NCBI GenBank assembly: GCA_016208905.1 | Contig: JACQXG010000006.1 | Coordinates: 1 to 36,777 of the forward strand | Length of the DNA: 36,777 bases | Reading direction: 5' to 3' | From: Nitrospirota bacterium | Lineage (GTDB): Bacteria > Nitrospirota > Thermodesulfovibrionia > UBA6902 | Part shown: positions 9,271 to 32,323 of the stretch, piece after piece | Numbering within the stretch: the first letter of the stretch is position 1 | Layout of the letters: each line of letters opens with the position of its first letter | Program-made: the position numbers and the translations under genes | The notes under the pieces: generated by a model | Told to the model about the DNA's origin: nothing | The model's database searches: none | What the model saw: the letters and a program-made list of their open reading frames with translations, nothing else

Positions 9271-9300
9271 TTGACACCATCATTTTATCTTTGTTATGAT
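9271..9300 (+). promoter_or_regulatory. Sigma-70 promoter placed for leaderless transcription of the HEPN gene
   Basis: TTGACA (9271-9276) and TATGAT (9295-9300) are separated by 18 bases. The ATG of the HEPN gene begins at 9307, seven bases after the end of the -10 box, which is where transcription should begin. The mRNA would then have little or no 5' leader, and no ribosome site is visible. An apparent TTG start at 9271 is simply the -35 box. Confidence 0.65.
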
Positions 9301-9306
9301 TCTTTT

Positions 9307-9708
9307 ATGAAAAAGGCTTCAGTGAACTGGTTGTTATCGTCGCAATATGACTTGAAAACTGCTGAAACGTTACTGAAAAACAGACGATATATTTATGTAG
9401 TCTTTATGTGTCATCTGGCGTTGGAGAAAGCCCTCAAGGCGGTATTATCCGAAAAAGTTAGAGAGCTGCCTCCATATACACATAATCTCAATCGCCTTAT
9501 TGAATTAGGAGGTATTGCATTACCGGAAAAGCATAAAATGTTTATTGACAAGATAAATCTTCTAAGTGTTCCAACAAGGTATCCTGAAGATTTCAAGAGG
9601 CTGTCAAAAGAATTTAATAAAAAGATTGCAGGGGATTATTTGAAAGAGGCAAAAGGAATAATAATATGGTTAAAGCGAAATATACCCGAACTGAAATCAA
9701 AAAGCTGA
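9307..9708 (+). CDS. HEPN domain protein (probable RNase toxin)
   Basis: 133 residues from the ATG at 9307. The upstream TTG at 9271 coincides with a promoter -35 box and is rejected. The protein is a HEPN-domain family member: VNWLLSSQYDLKTAETLLKN, then YVVFMCHLALEKALKAVL, then RELPPYTHNLNRL. The RNase motif Rx4-6H is met by Arg52 and His59 (RELPPYTH). HEPN proteins of this class pair with small nucleotidyltransferases; the partner follows and overlaps it by 43 bases. The order is toxin first, opposite to the pair at 3140-3786. It follows the 3' end of the broken glutamate synthase gene, as the other pair follows the relic of the same gene. Toxicity is inferred. Confidence 0.85.
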   Translation: MKKASVNWLLSSQYDLKTAETLLKNRRYIYVVFMCHLALEKALKAVLSEKVRELPPYTHNLNRLIELGGIALPEKHKMFIDKINLLSVPTRYPEDFKRLSKEFNKKIAGDYLKEAKGIIIWLKRNIPELKSKS

Positions 9709-10007
9709 TAAAGACATTGGCTGCCGAGCTTGAAAGAAATAAGATAAAGGTTTCAAAGATTATTCTTTACGGCTCTTATGCAAGAGGCAATCCACGAAAT
9801 TATTCTGATATCGACATAGCCATTATCTCCCCAACATTTAAAGGCCTGCGGTTACTTGCGATACAGGAGCAGCTTTCGCGGGTCTTGTCGAAATATCTTG
9901 CAGTAATAGAACCCCTGGGATATTCTCCTGAAGACTATAAACTTGCAAGCCCCGAAACATTTTTAGGAGAGATAAAGAGATCAGGCAAGGTTTTGTACTC
10001 CGCATGA
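9666..10007 (+). CDS. MNT-family nucleotidyltransferase (probable antitoxin)
   Basis: 113 residues. GSx10DxD is present as GSYARGNPRNYSDID (Gly36, Ser37, Asp48, Asp50), preceded by KVSKIILYGSYA, the usual strand before the motif. This is the minimal nucleotidyltransferase fold found as the partner of HEPN toxins. The start lies inside the HEPN gene (43-base overlap), so translation is probably coupled. The C-terminal part (YSPEDYKLASPETFLGEIKR, then SGKVLY) is typical of this group. It is convergent with the XRE regulator at 10070-10693. Confidence 0.87.
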   Translation: MVKAKYTRTEIKKLIKTLAAELERNKIKVSKIILYGSYARGNPRNYSDIDIAIISPTFKGLRLLAIQEQLSRVLSKYLAVIEPLGYSPEDYKLASPETFLGEIKRSGKVLYSA

Positions 10008-13330: not shown

Positions 13331-14548
13331 ATGGGAAAAAGGATATTAACAGCTTTAATTATTGGACAGACGGCATTATATATTTGTGGATGTGTACCTG
13401 AAAATAAAAACGTAGGAAAAACCCCCGGCATTACTGATACTGAAATTATAATCGGCTCCTCATCCGCATTAGGCGGACATGCGAGCTTTCTGGGCACCCA
13501 GACTATCCACGGGTCATTGGCATATGTTAATGAAATAAATGAACAGGGCGGCATTCACGGCAGAAAAATAAGAGTCATCACGTATGACGACCAATACGAC
13601 CCCCCAAAGACAGTCACAAATACTCAAAGGTTAATTAAATATGATAAGGTCTTTGCCTTATTTGATTATGTTGGAACACCCACATCCGTAAAAATAATTG
13701 ATATCGTTCAAGAGGCTGGAATTCCCGCACTCGGTTTCTTTACCGGAGCCGAAGCATTGAGAACTCCATACAGGCCTTATATGTTTCATGTAAGGGACTC
13801 CTATTATTCGGAAGCAGAAGGATCTGTTGCGTATTTTGTCGACATGCTCGGACTTAAAAAAATTGCCGTTATGTACCAGGAAGATGATTTTGGCCTGGCC
13901 GTTCTTACGGGAGTGCAACTTGCCCTCGAAAGAAGAAATATGGAAACTATCGCAACTGCAACGTATATCAGAGGGACAATGGATGTGGAGGAGGCTGTTC
14001 AAACCATAAAGAAAAGCGGCGCTGAAGCAGTGGTAATGGTCGGGACCTACAGCCCCCTGGCCAAGTTTATAAAAAAATCACACGATGCAGGATTCACGCC
14101 GTATTTCCATACGGTATCATTCGTCGGCTCAGAGGCCTTCGGCAAAGAAATCGTAGAAACACAGAAAATCAACCCTGCCCAGCATGACAAGATCATCGTG
14201 ACTCAGGTTGTGCCGTGCCCTTTCTCTGATCATCTGGCAGGAGTCAGAGAATATCAGAAATTAATAAAGAAGTATTATCCGAATGACAAGCCTAATTTCG
14301 TGGCGCTGGAAGGCTTCATAAATGCAAAGGTCCTTGTCAAGGCTTTAAGAGATGCCGGGCGTGATTTAACCAGGGGAAAATTCATCGCTGCTTTGGAATC
14401 ATTGCAAAATTACGACATCGGCATTGACAAAGGGATAACTTATGGCGCCCTGGACCACCAGGGACTGGAAGGCATTTATTACTCAAAAGTAACAAAACAG
14501 GGGATATTCAGGTTTTCCGGCCATAATGAGAAGAAAGATATAAAATGA
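13331..14548 (+). CDS. LivJ-like periplasmic binding lipoprotein
   Basis: 405 residues. The N-terminus has a short signal with a lipobox-like YICGC (Cys21), so a membrane-anchored lipoprotein is likely. The body is the type I binding fold of branched-chain amino-acid and amide transporters: TDTEIIIGSSSALGGHASFL, NEQGGIHGRKIRVITYDDQY, KVFALFDYVGTPTS, KKIAVMYQEDDFG. No transporter permease or ATPase follows. Instead the next gene is a membrane GGDEF-EAL sensor whose ATG overlaps this stop (ATGA), so the protein probably serves as a ligand receptor for signalling rather than for uptake. Ligand identity cannot be read from the sequence. Confidence 0.87.
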   Translation: MGKRILTALIIGQTALYICGCVPENKNVGKTPGITDTEIIIGSSSALGGHASFLGTQTIHGSLAYVNEINEQGGIHGRKIRVITYDDQYDPPKTVTNTQRLIKYDKVFALFDYVGTPTSVKIIDIVQEAGIPALGFFTGAEALRTPYRPYMFHVRDSYYSEAEGSVAYFVDMLGLKKIAVMYQEDDFGLAVLTGVQLALERRNMETIATATYIRGTMDVEEAVQTIKKSGAEAVVMVGTYSPLAKFIKKSHDAGFTPYFHTVSFVGSEAFGKEIVETQKINPAQHDKIIVTQVVPCPFSDHLAGVREYQKLIKKYYPNDKPNFVALEGFINAKVLVKALRDAGRDLTRGKFIAALESLQNYDIGIDKGITYGALDHQGLEGIYYSKVTKQGIFRFSGHNEKKDIK

Positions 14549-17169
14549 ATTTAACGTTTAAGACCATTCTAAGTTTTATCCTGATTATAGTCCTTGTAGC
14601 CGCTGCCAATATTTACTCAACGTCTTACGTACTCAGAAATCTCCAGGAAGAAAGACTGAAAACCTCGGAGGTCTTATTTGCAAAGAGCCTCTCCAAACGG
14701 CTTTTCCGTGCTGTCATAGATCAGAGAATTAACAAAATTACGGATGTGCTGTTTGAAGAAAAAGGCCTGAGGGAAGAAAAAATAGAATATATCATGGTAG
14801 TCGACAAAAAGGGACATTTATTGGCCCATACATATTTGAATAATATACCCGGGAAATTTTTGAAAATAGAAAACGCCTTTGCAAAGAAAGAAGAATACAG
14901 GCTGGAGAAAATAGAAGACAGGGAATTGTCCGTTTATAATATTGCCGTTCCTGTAATGGAGGGGATAAAACAGGTCGGCGCCATCCATGTAGGGATAAGG
15001 TCGGATTATGTAGAAAATATTGTCACTCCGACAAAAACCGCCTCGCATTTCTCATTAATTATAACGCTCATAATTACACTGATTGCAGTTGTTATCGCCA
15101 TACCTTTATCGCGAACCATAACAAACCCCCTTGTGCGGCTAAAGAACTTTGCGGAAAAAATCAGCAGGGGCGAGCTGGAAACCCAAATAGACATAAAAAC
15201 CAGGGATGAGATCGGAGATCTCGCCGGGGCCTTTAATAAGATGAGCACCGACATGCATAAAACTATTTCATCACTTGATCAGGAGATCAGCGAGCGTAAA
15301 AAGGCAGAAGATGAAATAAAGAGCAATTACCAGGTCCAGTCTGTTTTAAGTAAATTACTTAATATCTCATTGCAGGAAATCTCACTGGAAGAACAACTGA
15401 AAATTATCCTGGAGCATATACTTTCCATATCATGGGTTTCACTGGTGTCAAAGGGGGCCATCTTTCTTGTTGAAGACGATGCCGGGGTGCTTGTTATGAA
15501 GGCCCAGCATGAGCTGGCCGCTCCATTACTGAAGTCGTGCGCCCGGGTCCCGTTCGGCAGATGTATGTGCGGCAGGGCGGCGGCGTCAGGCGAGATCGAG
15601 TTTGCCGATCGTATCGATGAGCGGCATGACACGCGGTATGACGGCATTGCACCCCATGGTCATTATTGTGTTCCCATAATGCATGAAGGGAAAGTGCTGG
15701 GAATTATAAACCTGTACGTGAAAGAGGGGCACAAGCGTGATCAAAGGGAGGAGAGATTTCTCTGGGCGGTTGCAGACGTTCTGGCCGGCATTATAAGGCA
15801 CAAGCAGGCTGAAAAACAGATCAAATACCTTGCCTATTATGATGACCTGACGGGGCTGCCAAATCGTGTCCTGTTTAAAGACAGGGTGGAAAATTCTTTA
15901 AAAGAGACTCAACGTTACAATGGCCTTATAGCTGTGTTGTTTTTAGACCTGGATAACTTTAAAAAAATAAACGATACCCTCGGGCACCGGATGGGAGACC
16001 TGATGTTAAAGGAAGTTGCGATGCGATTAAAGACGTGTTTGCGCGAGAGTGACACCATTGCCCGCAAGAACGAGAACTTATCAGAAAGTATTTTGGCCCG
16101 CCTCGGCGGCGATGAGTTCACCGTATTACTAATCAATATCGGGCACATAGAGGATGCGGCAAAAGTATCGCAGCGCATACTGGAAGTAATATCCCAGCCG
16201 ATTACATTAGACAGCCATGAGGTCATTATTACTGCCAGTATCGGTATTTCAACATGCTGTATTGAGGAGGAAAACGTTGACAGCCTGCTTAAACATGCGG
16301 ATACGGCAATGTATAAAGCCAAAAAAGACGGCAAAAACAATTACAAATTTTTTAATCAGTCCATGAACGCCGCGGTCATGCGGAGACTTGACCTTGAGAA
16401 CAAACTGCGCAAGGCCTATATTAACAGAGAATTTATGCTTTACTATCAGCCCCAGTTTGAAATCGTCACAGGAAAGATAGTAGGTATGGAGGCCTTAATA
16501 CGCTGGCAGCACCCTGAAATGGGAATGGTCCCTCCGATGGAGTTTATCCCGCTGGCAGAAGAGACAGGCCTTATAGTGCCAATCGGTGAATGGGTGTTAA
16601 ACGCTGCATGTACACAAAACAAGGCATGGCAGGATGAAGGTTATTTACCAATTAAATTATCAGTCAATCTGTCCAGCCAGCAGTTTAAGAACAACGATAT
16701 CATAAAAACCATATCAAAGGTACTGAAAGATACTTGCATGGACCCCCGATACCTCGTATTGGAAATAACCGAAAGCATTATTATGCAAAACAAGGAGAAG
16801 ACAATCTCAATGTTGAATACATTAAATACAATGGGACTGAGTCTTGCCATGGATGACTTTGGGACAGGATATTCTTCCCTGAGTTATTTGAAACGCTTCC
16901 CTTTAGACGTAGTAAAGATCGATAGGTCCTTTATAAAAGATGTTACCGGCAGCAAGGAAGACGCAGCCATAGTCAAAGCCATCATTGCTATGGTGCACAG
17001 TCTGGAATTGAAGGTAATTGCAGAAGGGGTTGAGACAGAGCAGCAACTTAATTTTCTCCTGGAACACGGATGTGATGAAGTGCAGGGTTATCTCTTTAGC
17101 CGCCCTTTGCCGTCAAAAGATGTCTCAAATCTACTAAGGAAAGGTTTGGTCTTACCTGTGCCCCGTTAG
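14545..17169 (+). CDS. Membrane sensor with HAMP, GAF, GGDEF and EAL domains
   Basis: 874 residues. Transmembrane helix 1 (about 7-27), periplasmic Cache-like sensor (30-170; YIMVVDKKGHLLAHTY, YNIAVPVMEG, GAIHVGI), helix 2 (about 171-190), HAMP (to about 242), GAF (about 265-430), GGDEF domain with intact GGDEF at 521-525, and EAL domain from about 630 with EAL at 649-651 and DDFGTGYSSLSYLKRFP. Both the c-di-GMP synthase and phosphodiesterase motifs look intact. A short insertion (about 12 residues) separates RESD from GGDEF, so the usual product-inhibition I-site is displaced. The start overlaps the upstream binding protein, suggesting the two act together. The sensor resembles that of the kinase at 25311. 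Confidence 0.92.
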   Translation: MNLTFKTILSFILIIVLVAAANIYSTSYVLRNLQEERLKTSEVLFAKSLSKRLFRAVIDQRINKITDVLFEEKGLREEKIEYIMVVDKKGHLLAHTYLNNIPGKFLKIENAFAKKEEYRLEKIEDRELSVYNIAVPVMEGIKQVGAIHVGIRSDYVENIVTPTKTASHFSLIITLIITLIAVVIAIPLSRTITNPLVRLKNFAEKISRGELETQIDIKTRDEIGDLAGAFNKMSTDMHKTISSLDQEISERKKAEDEIKSNYQVQSVLSKLLNISLQEISLEEQLKIILEHILSISWVSLVSKGAIFLVEDDAGVLVMKAQHELAAPLLKSCARVPFGRCMCGRAAASGEIEFADRIDERHDTRYDGIAPHGHYCVPIMHEGKVLGIINLYVKEGHKRDQREERFLWAVADVLAGIIRHKQAEKQIKYLAYYDDLTGLPNRVLFKDRVENSLKETQRYNGLIAVLFLDLDNFKKINDTLGHRMGDLMLKEVAMRLKTCLRESDTIARKNENLSESILARLGGDEFTVLLINIGHIEDAAKVSQRILEVISQPITLDSHEVIITASIGISTCCIEEENVDSLLKHADTAMYKAKKDGKNNYKFFNQSMNAAVMRRLDLENKLRKAYINREFMLYYQPQFEIVTGKIVGMEALIRWQHPEMGMVPPMEFIPLAEETGLIVPIGEWVLNAACTQNKAWQDEGYLPIKLSVNLSSQQFKNNDIIKTISKVLKDTCMDPRYLVLEITESIIMQNKEKTISMLNTLNTMGLSLAMDDFGTGYSSLSYLKRFPLDVVKIDRSFIKDVTGSKEDAAIVKAIIAMVHSLELKVIAEGVETEQQLNFLLEHGCDEVQGYLFSRPLPSKDVSNLLRKGLVLPVPR

Positions 17170-17350: not shown

Positions 17351-17812
17351 ATGGCTATTGAAAGACATGAGGTACCAATCCTTATGGCCGATGACGATGA
17401 AGATGACCGGCTCATGGCGCGTGAGGCCCTTGAAGAAGCACATTTGTCCAATAACATATATTTCGTTGAGAATGGAGAGGAACTCCTTGATTATCTTTAT
17501 CATCGCGGGAAGTATGCTAATCCGGCTGATTCACCTAATCCAGGCCTTATACTTCTTGATCTGAATATGCCTAAGAAGGACGGCAGAGAGGCTCTTAAAG
17601 AGATCAAGGCAGACCAGAATCTCAGACATATTCCGATCGTCGTGCTGACAACATCGAAGGCAGAAGACGATATCTTTAAAACCTATCGTCTGGGGGCCAA
17701 TTCTTTTATCACAAAACCTGTCTCTTTTGAAAGTCTCGTGGATGTTATGAAGACGCTGGCGAACTACTGGTTCCAGATCGTGAAACTGCCATACTGCAAT
17801 AATGATAAATAA
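17351..17812 (+). CDS. Rcp1-like single-domain response regulator
   Basis: 153 residues, only a receiver domain. The acidic pocket is ADDDEDDR (residues 13-20), the phospho-acceptor is Asp70 in LILLDLNMPKKDGREALKEI, the threonine is in VVLTTSKAEDD and the lysine in FITKP. The YLYHRGKY loop is typical of the Rcp1 group, the partners of phytochrome-like kinases with HDLQEPLRK boxes, two of which lie downstream (19784 and 22611). GAGAGGA precedes the ATG. The stop lies 11 bases inside the next gene, so translation is coupled. Its paralogue at 22062 is very similar. No output domain, so it must act through protein contacts or as a phosphorelay intermediate. Confidence 0.92.
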   Translation: MAIERHEVPILMADDDEDDRLMAREALEEAHLSNNIYFVENGEELLDYLYHRGKYANPADSPNPGLILLDLNMPKKDGREALKEIKADQNLRHIPIVVLTTSKAEDDIFKTYRLGANSFITKPVSFESLVDVMKTLANYWFQIVKLPYCNNDK

Positions 17813-19667
17813 ACACCTTAACATACTGCTTGTTGAGGACGATGAAGACGACTTCATCCTGACTCGTGACCTGCTTTACGAAGTCGAAGGAGTTAGTTAC
17901 GACATAGAGTGGGCATCAACCTATGAAACCGCCCTCGAGGCGATCAAACGTAAATGTCATGATATATATTTGTTCGATTACCGGCTGGGGGAAAGAACAG
18001 GGCTTGAACTTTTACGTACCGCACTCGATTCCGGCAGCAAAGTCCCTGTAATCCTGATGACCGGCCAGGGAGACAAGGAAATCGACATGGAGGCCATGAG
18101 CGCCGGGGCATCGGATTACCTTGTAAAGGGGCACATAGACGCGCAGCTTCTGGAGCGCTCCATACGTTATGCAGTCGAGCGTAAAAAAGCCAACGATCAA
18201 ATTTCTCATATGGCCTATTACGACAGTTTGACCAATTTACATAACCGCATTTCATTTAAAGAGAGTCTCAAACAGACTATAACCATCAACAAAGGCTGCG
18301 ATAAAATTACTGCTCTCCTGTTTCTTGACCTCGACAACTTTAAGCGCATCAATGACACGTTCGGTCATACAGTGGGAGATGATTTGCTGAAAGAAGTTGC
18401 TGATCGTCTCAAAAAATGTGTACGTAAAAGCGATTGTATTGCACGCAATGTTTTTAATGAAACAAATCATACTATTGCGCGATTGGGCGGTGATGAGTTT
18501 ACAATAGTATTGTCCGCCGGCCACATCCATGATGCTGCCAATGCAGCTCAACGTATTCTCGATGCATTGTCCTCTCCATTTGAACTGGAAGGGGACAAGA
18601 TGTTTATTACTGCCAGTATAGGGATCGCCGTGCATCCCCTTGACGGAGAAGACGTTGAAACTCTTATCAAGAACGCTGATGCAGCAATGTATCATGCCAA
18701 GGAACTTGATAAAAACAATTACCAGTTTTATAAAAAGTCCCTGAACGAAACCTCATTGAGACGCCTTACAGTAGAAAACAGCCTCAGGAAGGCGGTAGAG
18801 AACTGCAATTTTACTCTTTTATATCAGCCTAAGATGGAGATTAGTACGGGAAAAATTGTCGGTATGGAGGCCTTAATACGCTGGGAAGACCCTGAAGAAG
18901 GAATGATATCCCCGACGGAATTTATCCCCCTGGCAGAAGAAATGGGCCTGATCAATCCTATAGGCGAATGGGTCTTAAGAACGGCCTGCGCACAAAACAT
19001 GTCCTGGCAAAAAGCCGGCCTGACACCGATCCGCGTTTCCATCAATATGTCAGGCCGTCAGTTTAAGCAGAAAAATCTGATCACAATGGTTTCAGACATA
19101 TTGAATGATACAGGACTTGATCCCCGGTATCTGGAACTCGAGATCACGGAAAGCATTGTCATGGAAAACGTAAATACCACCATAGCAACGCTGAATGATT
19201 TAAAAAAAATGGGGCTGCGGCTCTCCATGGACGATTTCGGCACAGGTTATTCATCATTCAGTTATCTGAAGCGCATACCTCTGGATATCATAAAGATAGA
19301 TCAGACATTCATTAAAGACATTCATTCAGATCCTCAGGACAGAACAATAATTAATGCTATTATCGTCATGGCGCACAGCCTCGGTATGGAGGTCATCGCT
19401 GAGGGCGTTGAAACTGAAAGACAGCTGTCATTCCTTGTGGCAAGCAAATGCAGAGAAATCCAGGGGTTCCTTTTAAGCAGCCCCCTTACCTCCGCAGAGG
19501 CTACGGAGTGTCTGGAAAAAGAAGCGCTCGGGGACGGTATCGGCGTGCGGCTTTACCGCAAAATTACGGATCGTTTTGATGATATCACTGCGGTACAGCG
19601 CGTCATCCGCCAGGAGGAAGGAACTGGCAGGGTATTTGATGCCATTGAGGGAAATGCATGTGAATGA
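17802..19667 (+). CDS. Response regulator with GGDEF and EAL domains
   Basis: 621 residues, soluble. REC domain (about 1-125; VEDDEDD, phospho-acceptor Asp59 in FDYRLGERTG), GGDEF domain (about 150-310, GGDEF at 229-233), EAL domain (about 340-575, EAL at 356-358, DDFGTGYSSFSYLKRIPLDI). Motifs of both catalytic domains appear intact. As in the upstream sensor, an insertion lies between the RKSD site and GGDEF. The gene overlaps the upstream receiver gene by 11 bases. The short REC-only protein and this REC-effector may therefore share a kinase. In-frame codons after its stop look protein-like up to about 19780. Confidence 0.92.
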   Translation: MINKHLNILLVEDDEDDFILTRDLLYEVEGVSYDIEWASTYETALEAIKRKCHDIYLFDYRLGERTGLELLRTALDSGSKVPVILMTGQGDKEIDMEAMSAGASDYLVKGHIDAQLLERSIRYAVERKKANDQISHMAYYDSLTNLHNRISFKESLKQTITINKGCDKITALLFLDLDNFKRINDTFGHTVGDDLLKEVADRLKKCVRKSDCIARNVFNETNHTIARLGGDEFTIVLSAGHIHDAANAAQRILDALSSPFELEGDKMFITASIGIAVHPLDGEDVETLIKNADAAMYHAKELDKNNYQFYKKSLNETSLRRLTVENSLRKAVENCNFTLLYQPKMEISTGKIVGMEALIRWEDPEEGMISPTEFIPLAEEMGLINPIGEWVLRTACAQNMSWQKAGLTPIRVSINMSGRQFKQKNLITMVSDILNDTGLDPRYLELEITESIVMENVNTTIATLNDLKKMGLRLSMDDFGTGYSSFSYLKRIPLDIIKIDQTFIKDIHSDPQDRTIINAIIVMAHSLGMEVIAEGVETERQLSFLVASKCREIQGFLLSSPLTSAEATECLEKEALGDGIGVRLYRKITDRFDDITAVQRVIRQEEGTGRVFDAIEGNACE

Positions 19668-24381: not shown

Positions 24382-25314
24382 TTGAAGAAAATAATTTTTC
24401 TTAGCGTCGTCCTTCTCCTTTTTTGCGGCATATCAGGCTGCAGCAGGGATGAAGACGTCAAGAGGATAGACCTTTCCCAAAAGATAGACGTAAAAGCAGC
24501 ACAGTCGCAGTCAAGCGGCCCCCCCCTCCGAATCGCCGTCGGTGGCATGATTACGCCCAAAGAAGGCTTTTCTTATTACAAGCAACTTCTTGATTATATC
24601 GGAGAGAAACTTGGCAGAAAAGTAGAATTCGTAGACAGGGAAGATTATGCGGAAATAAACGCCCTGGTCAAAAAAAGAGACGTGGACGTTGCTTTTGTAT
24701 GCGGCGGGCCATATGTTGACGGGCATGCGGATTTCGGAATGGAGCTTTTAGCGGCCCCTGTGGCTTACGGTGGGACGGTATATTATTCGTATATCATCGT
24801 ATCAAAAGACAGCCCTGTCGACAGCCTTGAGGGATTGCGTGGAAAGACTTTCGCCTTTACCGACCCCTTGTCCAATACGGGAAAGCTCGTGCCTACCTAT
24901 ATGCTGGCTAAAATGAATGAGACGCCGGAAACTTTTTTCAAGAGCTTCGATTACACGCATGCTCATGACAAATCTATCAAGGCGGTCGCTACAGGTGTTG
25001 CAGACGGCGCAGCGGTAGACAGCCTTATCTGGGAATATGCAAACCGGACAAATCCCGAGTTTACATCCAGGACAAAGATAATAAAAAAGTCTCCGCCATA
25101 TGGCATCCCGCCCGTTGCGGTCCATCCTGACATGGAGGCGCGATTAAAGGAAAGTTTAAGGCAGATTTACCTGAACGCTCATAACGATGGAAAAGGCAGA
25201 GGGATTTTAAAAGGCATGATGGTGGATAAATTTGTGCCCATAGACGACGGAGCATATGATTCGATAAGGGAAATGAAGCAATGGATTGCCGACATAAGGA
25301 CGGTCAAGCAGTGA
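24382..25314 (+). CDS. PhnD-like periplasmic binding lipoprotein
   Basis: 310 residues with a TTG start, supported by AAGGTGG nine bases upstream. Signal MKKIIFLSVVLLLFCGISGC ends in a lipobox, with Cys20 as the anchor. The body is a type II binding fold of the phosphate/phosphonate group: LRIAVGGMITPKEGFSYYKQ, LLDYIGEKLGRKVEFVDRED, DVAFVCGGPYVDG, GKTFAFTDPLSNTGKLVPTY and VATGVADGAAVDSLIWEY. No ABC transporter genes follow. Its TGA overlaps the GTG start of the next kinase (GTGA), so it is most likely the ligand-binding partner of that kinase. Phosphonate itself need not be the ligand; the family binds several anions. Confidence 0.9.
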   Translation: MKKIIFLSVVLLLFCGISGCSRDEDVKRIDLSQKIDVKAAQSQSSGPPLRIAVGGMITPKEGFSYYKQLLDYIGEKLGRKVEFVDREDYAEINALVKKRDVDVAFVCGGPYVDGHADFGMELLAAPVAYGGTVYYSYIIVSKDSPVDSLEGLRGKTFAFTDPLSNTGKLVPTYMLAKMNETPETFFKSFDYTHAHDKSIKAVATGVADGAAVDSLIWEYANRTNPEFTSRTKIIKKSPPYGIPPVAVHPDMEARLKESLRQIYLNAHNDGKGRGILKGMMVDKFVPIDDGAYDSIREMKQWIADIRTVKQ

Positions 25315-28055
25315 AGTTATTCAGACTGAAATTAGGCCACAAATTTTTAGCGGGGACCCTGGGGATAATACTTTTATTAGGCCTGTCGTTGATTGTTTTT
25401 ATAAGGTCGACATTGACACAAAAACTCATTTTGGAGATCCAGGAAAAAGGGATATACATAGCAAAGCATCTGGCCGACGCCAGCTCTGATCCCCTGCTTA
25501 CGGAGCATATTCTCAACCTCCAGATGACGATCAATGAGCAAACATCGGACAGCGACGTGGAATACATATTCATTCGGGACAATAATGGAAAGGTCCCGGT
25601 GCATACGTTCAGAGATGGCTTTCCGGCGGCGCTGATTGATATGAATATTCCCGAAGCCTCGCAGGAATTCAGCATGCGGTCTTTTGTGTCGGAAGGCATG
25701 ACCATGTATGACATAGCCGTCCCGATAATGAAAGGCGACCTGGGGGCCGTGCATGTAGGAATATCCGAGGCCTTTATCAGGGGAAGCGTTGCCGATATTA
25801 TCAGCCTGATCATAAAAATAGTGGCGGGAGTATTAATTGTTGGGGGCCTGACAGCGATTATTTTAGCCCGGAGGGTGACAAAACCCCTTGCTGAACTCGT
25901 TGAAACGTCAAGACAAATAGGCAGCGGGAATTTTGATACGAAGGTTGCTGTCAGGACAGATGATGAAATCGGACAACTGGGACTGACCTTCAATGCGATG
26001 GCCGGTCATTTAAAGGACACGACTGTTTCAAGGGATCATTTGATTATGGCGGAAGAAAAGGCGCGGGCGGAAAGGGACCGGGCGCAAAACTATCTTGATG
26101 TTGCCGGGGTCATGCTCGTGGCGCTTGACTCAGATGGCATAGTCACTTTGATAAACAAAAAAGGCTGTGAGATATTGGGGTATATGGAGGGTGATGTCGC
26201 AGGCAGGAACTGGTTTGACACCTTTGTCCCGGAAAGGATGAGAAACGAAGTAAGGACTGTTTTTAAGAGGTTAATGTCCGGGGAAGTTGCCGAAGTCGAA
26301 TGCTTTGAAAATTCTGTATTGACCCATAATAATAAAGAAAAATTAATTGCCTGGCATAACACGGTACTAAAAGACGGCAGTGGCAAAATCACTGGTACCC
26401 TGAGCTCCGGAGAAGATATAACGAAACGCAGGGGGACAGAGGCGGAAGTGGTGCGGAACCAGGAAGAACTCGTTAGAAATCATGCGGAGCTGAACAAACT
26501 CTTCAGGGCGGTCGAGATCGCAAATAAAGAACAGCAGAAAATCATGGATTCGCTGGGAGATATTATCATCCTCACTGACGACGAAGGGAAAATAAAGAGG
26601 ATAAACAACGCCATAAGGAAATTCACGGATAAACCTTACCATGAAATCTTCGACCATATATGGGAAGACCTGATATTTGAAAATGAACTTGAAGCCACCA
26701 CTCTCTACGAAGGCAGCACCGAGCTCCTGCACAGGCCGTCCCAAAAATGGTTCGAGCTTCAGGCTTATCCCTTCGAGGACGTAGAACTCGGGTTTTCCGG
26801 GAATGTTATTACAATCCACGAAACCACTGAGATAAAAAAAATCACCAAGGAGCTTGAAAATTACAGCAGGAAGACGGACGAAGACCGGATTAATCTGCAG
26901 AATGCCCTTGATCAGATATCCTCGCTTATGCAGAACGTCGCCAAGCAGACGGACACGAGCATCAGGCTTTCCAGCGACAATCTGAAGAAATGCTATGAAG
27001 TAAAGAATTGCTCCAAAAAAGACTGCGCATGTTACGGGAAAGGACCCATGAGGTGCTGGCAGGTTGCAGGGACGTACTGCGGCGGGCAGATTCAGGGGGC
27101 TTTTGCGCAAAAGTACAATAACTGCGCGGGGTGCGAGGTATTCAAAGAAGCCACGAAAGATCCCATTTATCAGATTGGCGAGCACTTTAACAATATGATG
27201 CACGTCCTTGAGGTGAAAAGCCGGGAGCTTGAGAACGCATATTCGGAGCTCAAGAACACCCAGGCACAGATACTCCAGCGCGAAAAAATGGCCTCCATCG
27301 GCCAGCTTGCAGCGGGGGTGGCGCACGAGATCAACAATCCTACGGGATTCATATTGAGCAACCTCGGGACCCTCGGCAAATACGTCAACAAGCTGACCGA
27401 GTACATCCAGGCCCAGTCTCTGGCCCTGGAGTCCATGAAAGCGGATGAATTAACGGCGGGGTTGAAAGAAACCAGGAAAAAGCTGAAACTCGATTACGTA
27501 ATTGAAGATGTAGGACAGTTGATCAAAGAGTCCATTGAAGGAGGAGAAAGGATAAAAAAGATAGTCCAGAACCTCAAGACCTTTTCAAGGGTCGACCAGG
27601 CGGAGTATAAGGCCGCCGACATCAATGAGTGCATTGAAAGCACATTAAACATAGTCTGGAACGAGCTGAAATATAAAACGACGGTGGAGAAAGAATATGG
27701 CGCTCTGCCTCTTGCCAAATGCTATCCGCAGCAGCTTAACCAGATATTTATGAACCTTCTTGTCAATGCGGCCCAGTCGATAGAGAAGCAGGGAGTCATA
27801 AAGATAAAGACATGGAACGGGGACGGAACAATAAACATCTTGATATCGGACACAGGCAGCGGAATCCCTGAGGACAAGTTAGGCAAGATTTTTGAGCCGT
27901 TTTATACCACTAAACCGGTCGGCCAAGGCACCGGGCTGGGGCTGAGCATAGTCTATGACATAGTAAAGAAGCACAAGGGGGATATCAGGGTGGAAAGCAA
28001 AGTTGGAAGCGGCACGGTTTTTACAATAAAGATACCCGTTGCGGAGGAAGCATAA
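25311..28055 (+). CDS. Membrane histidine kinase: Cache-HAMP-PAS-PAS-two-CW
   Basis: 914 residues from the GTG at 25311, which overlaps the stop of the PhnD-like gene; an ATG ten codons upstream is the alternative. Helix 1 (about 10-30), Cache-like sensor (about 35-165; YIFIRDNNGKVPVHTF, YDIAVPIMKGDLGAVHVGI), helix 2, HAMP, PAS (about 258-375), PAS (about 405-515), a Cys-rich two-CW domain (about 560-620; CYEVKNCSKKDC, RCWQVAGTYCGG, NCAGCEVF), dimerisation domain with His672 in GVAHEINNPTGF, and ATPase domain. The two-CW segment is a known but uncharacterised Cys motif and could bind a metal or sense redox. Its C-terminal half is nearly repeated in the next gene. Confidence 0.92.
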   Translation: MKLFRLKLGHKFLAGTLGIILLLGLSLIVFIRSTLTQKLILEIQEKGIYIAKHLADASSDPLLTEHILNLQMTINEQTSDSDVEYIFIRDNNGKVPVHTFRDGFPAALIDMNIPEASQEFSMRSFVSEGMTMYDIAVPIMKGDLGAVHVGISEAFIRGSVADIISLIIKIVAGVLIVGGLTAIILARRVTKPLAELVETSRQIGSGNFDTKVAVRTDDEIGQLGLTFNAMAGHLKDTTVSRDHLIMAEEKARAERDRAQNYLDVAGVMLVALDSDGIVTLINKKGCEILGYMEGDVAGRNWFDTFVPERMRNEVRTVFKRLMSGEVAEVECFENSVLTHNNKEKLIAWHNTVLKDGSGKITGTLSSGEDITKRRGTEAEVVRNQEELVRNHAELNKLFRAVEIANKEQQKIMDSLGDIIILTDDEGKIKRINNAIRKFTDKPYHEIFDHIWEDLIFENELEATTLYEGSTELLHRPSQKWFELQAYPFEDVELGFSGNVITIHETTEIKKITKELENYSRKTDEDRINLQNALDQISSLMQNVAKQTDTSIRLSSDNLKKCYEVKNCSKKDCACYGKGPMRCWQVAGTYCGGQIQGAFAQKYNNCAGCEVFKEATKDPIYQIGEHFNNMMHVLEVKSRELENAYSELKNTQAQILQREKMASIGQLAAGVAHEINNPTGFILSNLGTLGKYVNKLTEYIQAQSLALESMKADELTAGLKETRKKLKLDYVIEDVGQLIKESIEGGERIKKIVQNLKTFSRVDQAEYKAADINECIESTLNIVWNELKYKTTVEKEYGALPLAKCYPQQLNQIFMNLLVNAAQSIEKQGVIKIKTWNGDGTINILISDTGSGIPEDKLGKIFEPFYTTKPVGQGTGLGLSIVYDIVKKHKGDIRVESKVGSGTVFTIKIPVAEEA

Positions 28056-30168: not shown

Positions 30169-30989
30169 ACGAGGCAGTAAAAATATTGTGCGTAGATGAT
30201 GAAAAAAGTGTTCTCAAAGCGTTAGAGAGGCTTTTTCTCGATACTGACTATGAAATTATCACGGCAGAATCAGGTGATGAGGGGCTTGATATCCTCAAAA
30301 ACACAGCGCAGATTCAACTGGTAGTATCAGACTTCAGAATGCCCAGGATGAACGGCGTTGACTTTCTCAAGGAAGTCTATAATATCCGGCCGGACACAGT
30401 GAGGATCGTGCTGTCGGGATATGCCGATACAGCAGCGATAGTCGAGGCCATTAATGAAGGGAAAATATATAAATTCATACCCAAACCATGGAATGATGAT
30501 GAGCTGAAAATCACAATATCCCATGCCCTTGAACATTTCTTTACAAAACAGAGGAATATAGAGCTTGCATTGCAACTGGAAAGGGCGAATACTGAACTTA
30601 TGGAAATAAATTCCAGTCTTGAGAGACTTGTAGAGGAAAGAACATCCGAACTGATGATGCAGAACAGGATACTGACCGCCTCTCAAAACATCCTCGACGC
30701 TCTGCCTGTCGGCGTGGTAGGCATTGACCCCGAGGGATTAATAGTGCAGTGCAACAAGAAGGGCCTGGAGATTTTCAGACTGGATGAAGGCAATATCCTG
30801 GGCATGGATAGAAGAGATTCCCTCCCCGAAGATATAAATAATTTAATTGAAGTTATTATCAGGGAAAAAACACTTACTGCGCATATCGCAGATAACGGCT
30901 CTCATATTTCGGCCAAAGGCGTATACATGCAGCACTCAACCGGGCAGGAAGGGATCATTCTCGTTCTTGACGATGGGGGCAAGATATGA
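30165..30989 (+). CDS. Response regulator with receiver and PAS-like domain
   Basis: 274 residues. Receiver domain (about 1-125): CVDDEKS, phospho-acceptor Asp56 in VVSDFRMPRMNGVDFLKEV, SGYADTAAIVEAINEGKIYK, FIPKPWNDDE. Then a coiled coil (LERANTELMEINSSLERLVE) and a PAS-like domain (about 178-272; NILDALPVGVVGIDPEGLIV). No DNA-binding or enzymatic output is seen. Start overlaps the kinase stop and the stop overlaps the next start, both as ATGA. The receiver with the GYADTAAIVEAINEGKIYKF signature is of the type usually joined to HD-GYP domains, so this may be an adaptor between the kinases and the next protein. Confidence 0.88.
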   Translation: MNEAVKILCVDDEKSVLKALERLFLDTDYEIITAESGDEGLDILKNTAQIQLVVSDFRMPRMNGVDFLKEVYNIRPDTVRIVLSGYADTAAIVEAINEGKIYKFIPKPWNDDELKITISHALEHFFTKQRNIELALQLERANTELMEINSSLERLVEERTSELMMQNRILTASQNILDALPVGVVGIDPEGLIVQCNKKGLEIFRLDEGNILGMDRRDSLPEDINNLIEVIIREKTLTAHIADNGSHISAKGVYMQHSTGQEGIILVLDDGGKI

Positions 30990-32323
30990 TGGATACGGCA
31001 AATGAAATAAAATCCGAGGCCCCGATGGAGATCCTTTTTGTCGATGATGAAAAGAATGTGCTCTACTCATTAAGACGCCTGTTCATGGATGAAGATTATG
31101 AAATTCTCGTTGCAAATTCAGGGGAAGAGGCACTCGAAATTCTTAAGGCAAATCCCAACATAGGACTCATCGTCTCGGACCAGAGAATGCCGGGATTAAC
31201 AGGCGTTGACTTCCTCGAAAAGGCAAAAGAGATAGTCCCTGATGCGCTGAGGATACTGCTGACCGGGTATGCCGACATTAATGCCGTGGCAGATGCAATA
31301 AACAGGGGCGGGGCCTACAGGTATGTAACAAAGCCCTGGAAGGACGAGGAACTTGTACAGGTCATAGGGGAAGCGGCACAGCATTATTCACTGAGAAAAG
31401 AAAACAAGCGGCTTAATGAAATTGTAAAAAAGCAGAACCTGGAACTCAAGAAATGGAATTCCCAACTTGAATTCTTTGTGCAGGAACAGACCCTTGAAAT
31501 ACAGAAGAAGAACAAGGAGCTGGAGGGCCTTAACGAAAATCTGAAGAAAAATTTCAAGAACTCCATCCGCGCCTTCTCAAGCCTCCTGGAACTCCGGGAC
31601 AGGAAAACCGGATCTCATTCAAAAAACGTTGCGGAGCTTTCAGTAAAGATAGCCAGGAACATGAACTTGTCCGTCAAAGACACAGAGACAATCGCAGTTG
31701 CCGCGCTCCTGCATGATATCGGGAAAATAGGCATACCCGATACACTGCTTCTCAGGGATTTTGATGATATGGACAAGGAAGCAAAGAAGGAATACATGCA
31801 GCATCCGGTGAGGGGACAAGCCGCGGTTGATTCTGTTGAAGACCTGAGACCTGCCGGAATTTTAATCAGGCATCACCATGAATGGTTCAACGGACACGGT
31901 TATCCGGACGGGCTTTCAGGAGGTAAAATCCCGGCAGGCGCAAGGATCATTGCAGTCGCTGATTTTATAGATAAGACTATCAGGGAACTGGACGGGGACG
32001 GCGCTTTTGAAATAGTGCTGGACAAAGTCAGAAACTGGCTGGGCACACGGTTTGATTCCCAATTGTATCCATATATTGAAAAAGAGATCAAAGGCGTCTA
32101 TTCAAAAATACTGCCTCAGAGCAAGCACAGAATGCTTGAGGTAGAGCTTAATGTAAACGATATCAAGGAAGGGATGATACTTTCACGGGACGTAAAAAGC
32201 GGAACAGGGCTTATCCTCCTTTCCAGGGGGACCATACTGAACATGAAAAGCATCCAGGCGCTCAGGCGTTATTATCAGCTTGATCCGTCAAGGACAGGCA
32301 TATTCGTGTCGGTGGAGCGGTGA
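30986..32323 (+). CDS. Response regulator with HD-GYP domain (c-di-GMP phosphodiesterase)
   Basis: 445 residues. Receiver (about 13-135; phospho-acceptor Asp65 in IVSDQRMPGLTGVDFLEKAK), a long coiled coil (about 145-190), then an HD-GYP domain: HSKNVAEL, LLHDIGKIGIPD (His243, Asp244), HHHEWFNGHGYPDGLSGGKI and IIAVADFID. The metal-binding and GYP residues are present, so degradation of c-di-GMP is likely. A C-terminal extension (about 370-445) has a DIKEGMILSRDV motif often seen after such domains. It overlaps the upstream gene by four bases. Together with the EAL proteins it gives the island two distinct kinds of c-di-GMP hydrolase. Confidence 0.93.
   Translation: MMDTANEIKSEAPMEILFVDDEKNVLYSLRRLFMDEDYEILVANSGEEALEILKANPNIGLIVSDQRMPGLTGVDFLEKAKEIVPDALRILLTGYADINAVADAINRGGAYRYVTKPWKDEELVQVIGEAAQHYSLRKENKRLNEIVKKQNLELKKWNSQLEFFVQEQTLEIQKKNKELEGLNENLKKNFKNSIRAFSSLLELRDRKTGSHSKNVAELSVKIARNMNLSVKDTETIAVAALLHDIGKIGIPDTLLLRDFDDMDKEAKKEYMQHPVRGQAAVDSVEDLRPAGILIRHHHEWFNGHGYPDGLSGGKIPAGARIIAVADFIDKTIRELDGDGAFEIVLDKVRNWLGTRFDSQLYPYIEKEIKGVYSKILPQSKHRMLEVELNVNDIKEGMILSRDVKSGTGLILLSRGTILNMKSIQALRRYYQLDPSRTGIFVSVER

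Follow-up and report, generated by a model that had tools for sequence, protein, structure and literature searches.

The overlapping gene pair and its products

The window analysed here is the whole 36,777-nucleotide stretch of Nitrospirota DNA. On its forward strand two genes, at 13331-14548 and 14545-17169, encode proteins of 405 and 874 amino acids, and the stop codon of the first overlaps the start codon of the second in the sequence ATGA (14545-14548). An earlier note, made from the sequence alone, had described a LivJ-like lipoprotein gene with no transporter genes beside it, overlapping by ATGA the gene of a membrane sensor that makes and degrades c-di-GMP. The gene pair and its overlap are as that note had them, and the open reading frames and Pfam matches in the neighborhood of 13331-17169 include no transporter gene.

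The first gene (13331-14548) encodes a LivJ-like periplasmic binding protein with a type I fold, the proposed ligand sensor. It matches Peripla_BP_6 with an E-value of 1.8e-60, and the only other Pfam families matched are ANF_receptor and Peripla_BP_5. Its AF2 model has a pLDDT of 91. By sequence and fold together, the best matches in the PDB are 4kv7 from Rhodopirellula baltica, with which it shares the motifs GTPT, FTGA, RASY and SFVG, and 3lop from Ralstonia. A signal peptide can be read at 13331-13393, with a lipobox-like ICG/C at Cys21. The protein is thus a plausible lipoprotein, on a motif slightly off the consensus; judged from the aligned sequences lipidation is not a feature of its clade, because several homologues lack the cysteine.

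The description 'LivJ-like' should not be taken to mean leucine-binding, given that the pocket positions appear to differ. We take Ser79, Thr102 and Glu226 to be positions of the amino-acid pocket of E. coli LivJ. In an alignment of ~20% identity these correspond to Thr116, Gly139 and Ser263 of the window protein, and across the clade the Gly139 and Ser263 positions are invariant and the Thr116 position is Thr in 32 of 33 rows. Because the pocket positions carry other, conserved residues a standard amino acid is a doubtful ligand, a modest conclusion at ~20% identity, and the protein probably binds something other than a plain branched-chain amino acid. Ligand prediction for the window protein gave no firm result. 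In another family (f13; L024:115-10576 and similar loci) the genes for LivJ, kinase and receiver adjoin a molybdopterin oxidoreductase/NrfD operon and an isochorismatase-family gene. This neighborhood is a possible lead to the ligand in that one lineage; the window has no such neighbors.

The second gene (14545-17169) encodes a membrane sensor with the order TM-Cache-TM-HAMP-GAF-GGDEF-EAL. Pfam finds sCache_3_2, HAMP, GAF_2, GGDEF and EAL, the first of these just above its cut-off (30.8 versus 28.4 bits), and hydropathy gives two hydrophobic segments. TM1, a single periplasmic Cache domain and TM2 occupy aa 1-194 (14545-15126), which we propose as the docking site of the binding protein. The AF2 model of the N-terminus is rated fair (pLDDT 84), and in a fold search it matches the Cache domains of WalK, KinD and CitA. 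There follow a HAMP domain (aa 188-236; 15106-15252) and a GAF domain (aa 280-417; 15382-15795) that was missing from the earlier description. The GGDEF domain (15832-16341) has an intact GGDEF motif at aa 521-525, and the EAL domain (16399-17106) retains the motifs EAL, NLS, EITES, DDFGTG, KID and AEGVE. Because the catalytic motifs of both domains are intact the sensor can in principle both synthesize and break c-di-GMP. To that extent the activities claimed for it stand; real bifunctionality is something we infer.

A family of binding proteins beside membrane sensors

A profile of the window binding protein and its relatives matches 46 of the 396 genomes of its own phylum, and 14 of 384 genomes of a second phylum (that of L010, labelled Omnitrophota). 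Close members were taken as those scoring at least 490 bits, giving 29 loci that include the window and L074. In all 29 the binding-protein gene is followed on its own strand by a gene for a membrane sensor or a putative one. Histidine kinases account for 25 of these neighbors, a methyl-accepting chemotaxis protein (MCP) for one and the GGDEF-EAL protein of the window for one. The remaining two are cut by contig ends, with Cache-HAMP visible in L011 and, in L023, the start of a membrane segment with no Pfam match. The genes overlap by 1-22 nt in 20 of 24 kinase-paired homologues. At greater distance (300-490 bits, 28 loci) the next gene encodes an MCP in 10 cases and a kinase in seven; a few others have a sensor one gene further on and several have none.

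In the tree 34 subfamily rows lie on one side of a branch with SH-aLRT 100, a single clade that is partly by construction since the rows were chosen by similarity. E. coli LivJ and LivK fall in a different clade. They have the same superfamily and fold as the window protein, but differ from it in identity (~16% by structure alignment), in the pocket and in the livHMGF genes, which do not adjoin the window gene. From the sequences it appears that the Nitrospirota and Omnitrophota hold a clade of dedicated sensory binding proteins. The gene arrangement is not due to chance, because it recurs across dozens of genomes, mostly with another output domain. The conserved unit is the binding protein together with a Cache-HAMP module, and its usual output is a histidine kinase or a chemoreceptor.

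The GGDEF-EAL output is a single case, found in the window genome only, on one contig of an 86%-complete metagenome-assembled genome (MAG). Among 37 genomes of the family and among the surveyed loci no GGDEF-EAL partner for the binding protein was found besides that of the window, nor did 231 genomes of the class yield a full-length relative of the fused sensor. The earlier note had suggested a survey for LivJ-like genes next to Cache-HAMP-GGDEF-EAL genes, and regarded lack of conservation of the pair as evidence against its reading. The survey gives a divided answer. Cache-HAMP partners recur and their pairing with the binding protein is conserved, but the GGDEF-EAL pairing was found in this genome alone.

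Two other loci came to light. At L097:3993-9236 (G205) a distant LivJ relative is followed by an NMT1-like binding protein and then by a HAMP-PAS-GAF-GGDEF sensor, which is another possible binding-protein/c-di-GMP cluster. A LivJ-kinase pair lies at L013:2111-5139, on a contig labelled Candidatus Methanoperedens, an archaeon; either the pair was transferred to the archaeon or the contig is mis-binned.

The mosaic origin of the sensor

The closest LivJ homologues of the window protein are from Omnitrophota, with 66-71% identity, and the Cache-HAMP part of the window sensor is 46-48% identical to the Omnitrophota sensors adjoining these same homologues. The LivJ protein and the Cache-HAMP part therefore share their nearest relatives. 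For the GGDEF-EAL half the most similar proteins (up to 61% identity) belong to the window's own family, with which it groups in trees. It also has a loop insertion common to its own family, such that the I-site RxxD (aa 500-503) and the GGDEF motif are separated by 17 residues (16042-16119) instead of five. Where the I-site can be read in the Omnitrophota and f14 proteins, the spacing is five residues. An Omnitrophota origin for the entire sensor was rejected for the GGDEF-EAL half by the tree grouping and the loop insertion. Family f14, of the same class, also has the order GAF-GGDEF-EAL. It was rejected as the source of the output, with GGDEF-EAL merely 45-51% identical and the canonical I-site spacing in its testable members; an f14-like contribution would be at most the GAF part.

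On these sequence comparisons the window protein is a mosaic, of an Omnitrophota-like LivJ and Cache-HAMP and a native GGDEF-EAL half. Two genomes of the same genus (G001 and G003) have the neighboring radical-SAM gene and the signalling cluster, and at this locus lack the pair. The simplest story, leaving aside the order of events, would be that the binding-protein/Cache-HAMP module arrived and became fused to an output of the host lineage.

The loop insertion extends to other GGDEF domains of the window's family, for example that at 17802-19667, with ~8-18 residues between the RxxD and GGDEF motifs. It may alter product inhibition.

A putative two-protein receptor for c-di-GMP control

Control of kinases and chemoreceptors by binding proteins is well documented (PMC9602780). 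In the NspS-MbaA system of Vibrio cholerae, found also in Sinorhizobium, ligand occupancy of NspS sets the balance between the DGC and PDE activities of MbaA (PMC8967002). In ScrABC of Vibrio parahaemolyticus the docking of ScrB on the GGDEF-EAL protein ScrC switches the latter to a phosphodiesterase (PMC11315295). By the standards of these systems the window pair has adjacent genes, a binding protein encoded outside any transporter operon and intact catalytic motifs in both output domains. Like NspS-MbaA it pairs a periplasmic binding protein with an inner-membrane GGDEF-EAL protein; unlike ScrABC it has no adjacent scrA-like signal-synthase gene. NspS binds polyamines and is from a different SBP family, PotD-like with a type II fold, whereas the window protein belongs to Peripla_BP_6 and is of type I. 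MbaA has SGDEF and EVL where the window sensor has canonical GGDEF and EAL motifs, and the sensor domain of the latter is a single Cache domain of a family otherwise paired with kinases. In the part of the literature covered by our search no pairing of a LivJ or Peripla_BP_6 protein with a GGDEF protein was found. The novelty lies in the use of a type I binding protein, in the conserved clade of sensory proteins that lies behind it and in the exchange of output.

The best reading is of an NspS-MbaA/ScrB-ScrC-like system that uses a type I binding protein, in which we infer the coupling. The LivJ-like protein would catch a small ligand in the periplasm and, closed upon it, dock on the sensor's single Cache domain. 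A signal helix running through TM2, HAMP and GAF would then tip the balance between c-di-GMP synthesis by GGDEF and its breakdown by EAL. The binding protein and Cache-HAMP, together the input half, would be a portable sensory module, driving histidine kinases in relatives and chemoreceptors in distant ones, and joined in the window to the host lineage's own type of GGDEF-EAL output. We put the probability of such a two-protein extracytoplasmic receptor at about three in four. Sequence supplies the gene pair, its domains and catalytic motifs, the conservation of the module, the absence of linkage to transporters and the mosaic origin; docking and the direction of the switch are the conjectural steps. 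The earlier suggestion, that a bound ligand is reported directly to c-di-GMP metabolism, is thus the best-supported reading, given the conserved pairing and the separation from permeases described below, but with this output it is seen only here.

Some observations count against coupling. A published counter-example shows that an SBP gene and a kinase gene can be neighbors without a functional link (PMC11113362). Some of the lower-scoring LivJ relatives have no adjoining sensor. The first point would also fit a sensor in which the Cache domain detects the ligand by itself, the binding protein being unrelated or accessory. Direct binding of small ligands is a property of single Cache domains of the CitA/DcuS type, and the window sensor exceeds the sCache_3_2 cut-off and has a model matching that fold. 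Unlike the sCache_3_2 kinases it is paired with a binding-protein gene and has GAF-GGDEF-EAL as its output. Against autonomous sensing, LivJ and Cache-HAMP stay together across large divergence, apparent inter-phylum transfer and changes of output domain, so that an autonomous Cache sensor is unlikely.

The other alternatives involve transport. The genome (2.19 Mb in 107 contigs) has two complete livJHMGF operons elsewhere, and these transporters could in principle use the window protein. Each has its own LivJ, with ~26% identity to the window protein. In 30 genomes none of 31 subfamily genes has a LIV permease within 6 kb, whereas 29 of the 62 remaining Peripla_BP_6 genes there do, a comparison that is indicative only as the 30 genomes are mutually related. 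Six of the 30, two of them 99-100% complete, have no match to BPD_transp_2, the LIV permease. A role as transport subunit was therefore rejected as the main one. The earlier note had held that a cognate LIV transporter elsewhere using this protein would count against its reading. Such transporters are present, but because each operon has its own LivJ the objection does not apply in its strong form.

A dual role has been considered, in which the binding protein docks on both a LivHMGF transporter and the sensor, so that the sensor reads the flux of ligand. Binding proteins with dual use are known in general (PMC9602780) and the permeases exist in this genome, yet several genomes have subfamily members and no detectable permease, so transport is not the general role. 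We regard this too as improbable. An orphan transport subunit feeding a LivHMGF encoded elsewhere, with its place beside the sensor incidental, is very unlikely. The two operons would provide the transporter, but against this stand their own divergent LivJ proteins, the failure of the subfamily ever to lie near a permease, the sensor adjoining every close member, the permease-less genomes, and the score of the window protein with the NCBIfam LivJ model (68.6 bits, below the cut-off of 477). Lastly, it is most improbable that assembly joined two genomes of the bin into a chimeric reading frame: the contig is from a MAG and the halves of the sensor have different nearest relatives, but the 874-codon frame is uninterrupted with HAMP-GAF-GGDEF-EAL in the correct order, and because the sequence to either side of the pair matches genomes of the same genus such an error would have had to happen twice and keep the frame.

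If the two-protein receptor is real, a chemical outside the cell would set c-di-GMP directly, and a principle known from Vibrio, with NspS-MbaA also in Sinorhizobium, would be extended to a binding protein of LivJ type from uncultivated lineages that have been little studied. One input module with three kinds of output would provide a natural comparison, making the rules of coupling between binding protein and receptor testable. There is also a warning for annotation, as such genes are likely to be named as subunits of branched-chain amino acid transporters and are yet probably sensors. A broader proposition seems to us evenly balanced. It holds that signalling is the sole role of this type I family of the Nitrospirota and Omnitrophota, that together with a Cache-HAMP half-receptor the family forms a portable input to kinases, chemoreceptors and, here, a c-di-GMP enzyme, that the window sensor is a natural output-swap chimera, and that the ligand is not a standard branched-chain amino acid.

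Other signalling genes lie in the window. The product of 30986-32323 is a response regulator with HD_5 that scores above the cut-off of the NCBIfam NosR-family c-di-GMP phosphodiesterase model, and is a further candidate c-di-GMP enzyme in the cluster. Relatives have a small PilZ-type gene just after the one for REC-GGDEF-EAL (L189:8907-9251, confirmed by Pfam; also L183, L184, L186, L187 and L188); none was seen beside the REC-GGDEF-EAL copy of the window. Two small overlapping reading frames at 9271-10007 resemble, by eye, a HEPN/nucleotidyltransferase (MNT) pair. A second pairing of binding protein and sensor is formed by a PhnD-like protein (24382-25314) whose gene overlaps that of a HAMP-PAS histidine kinase (25281-28055). 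This pair resembles systems of the AioX-AioS type, and it is kept in G001 of the same genus with 74% and 61% identity.
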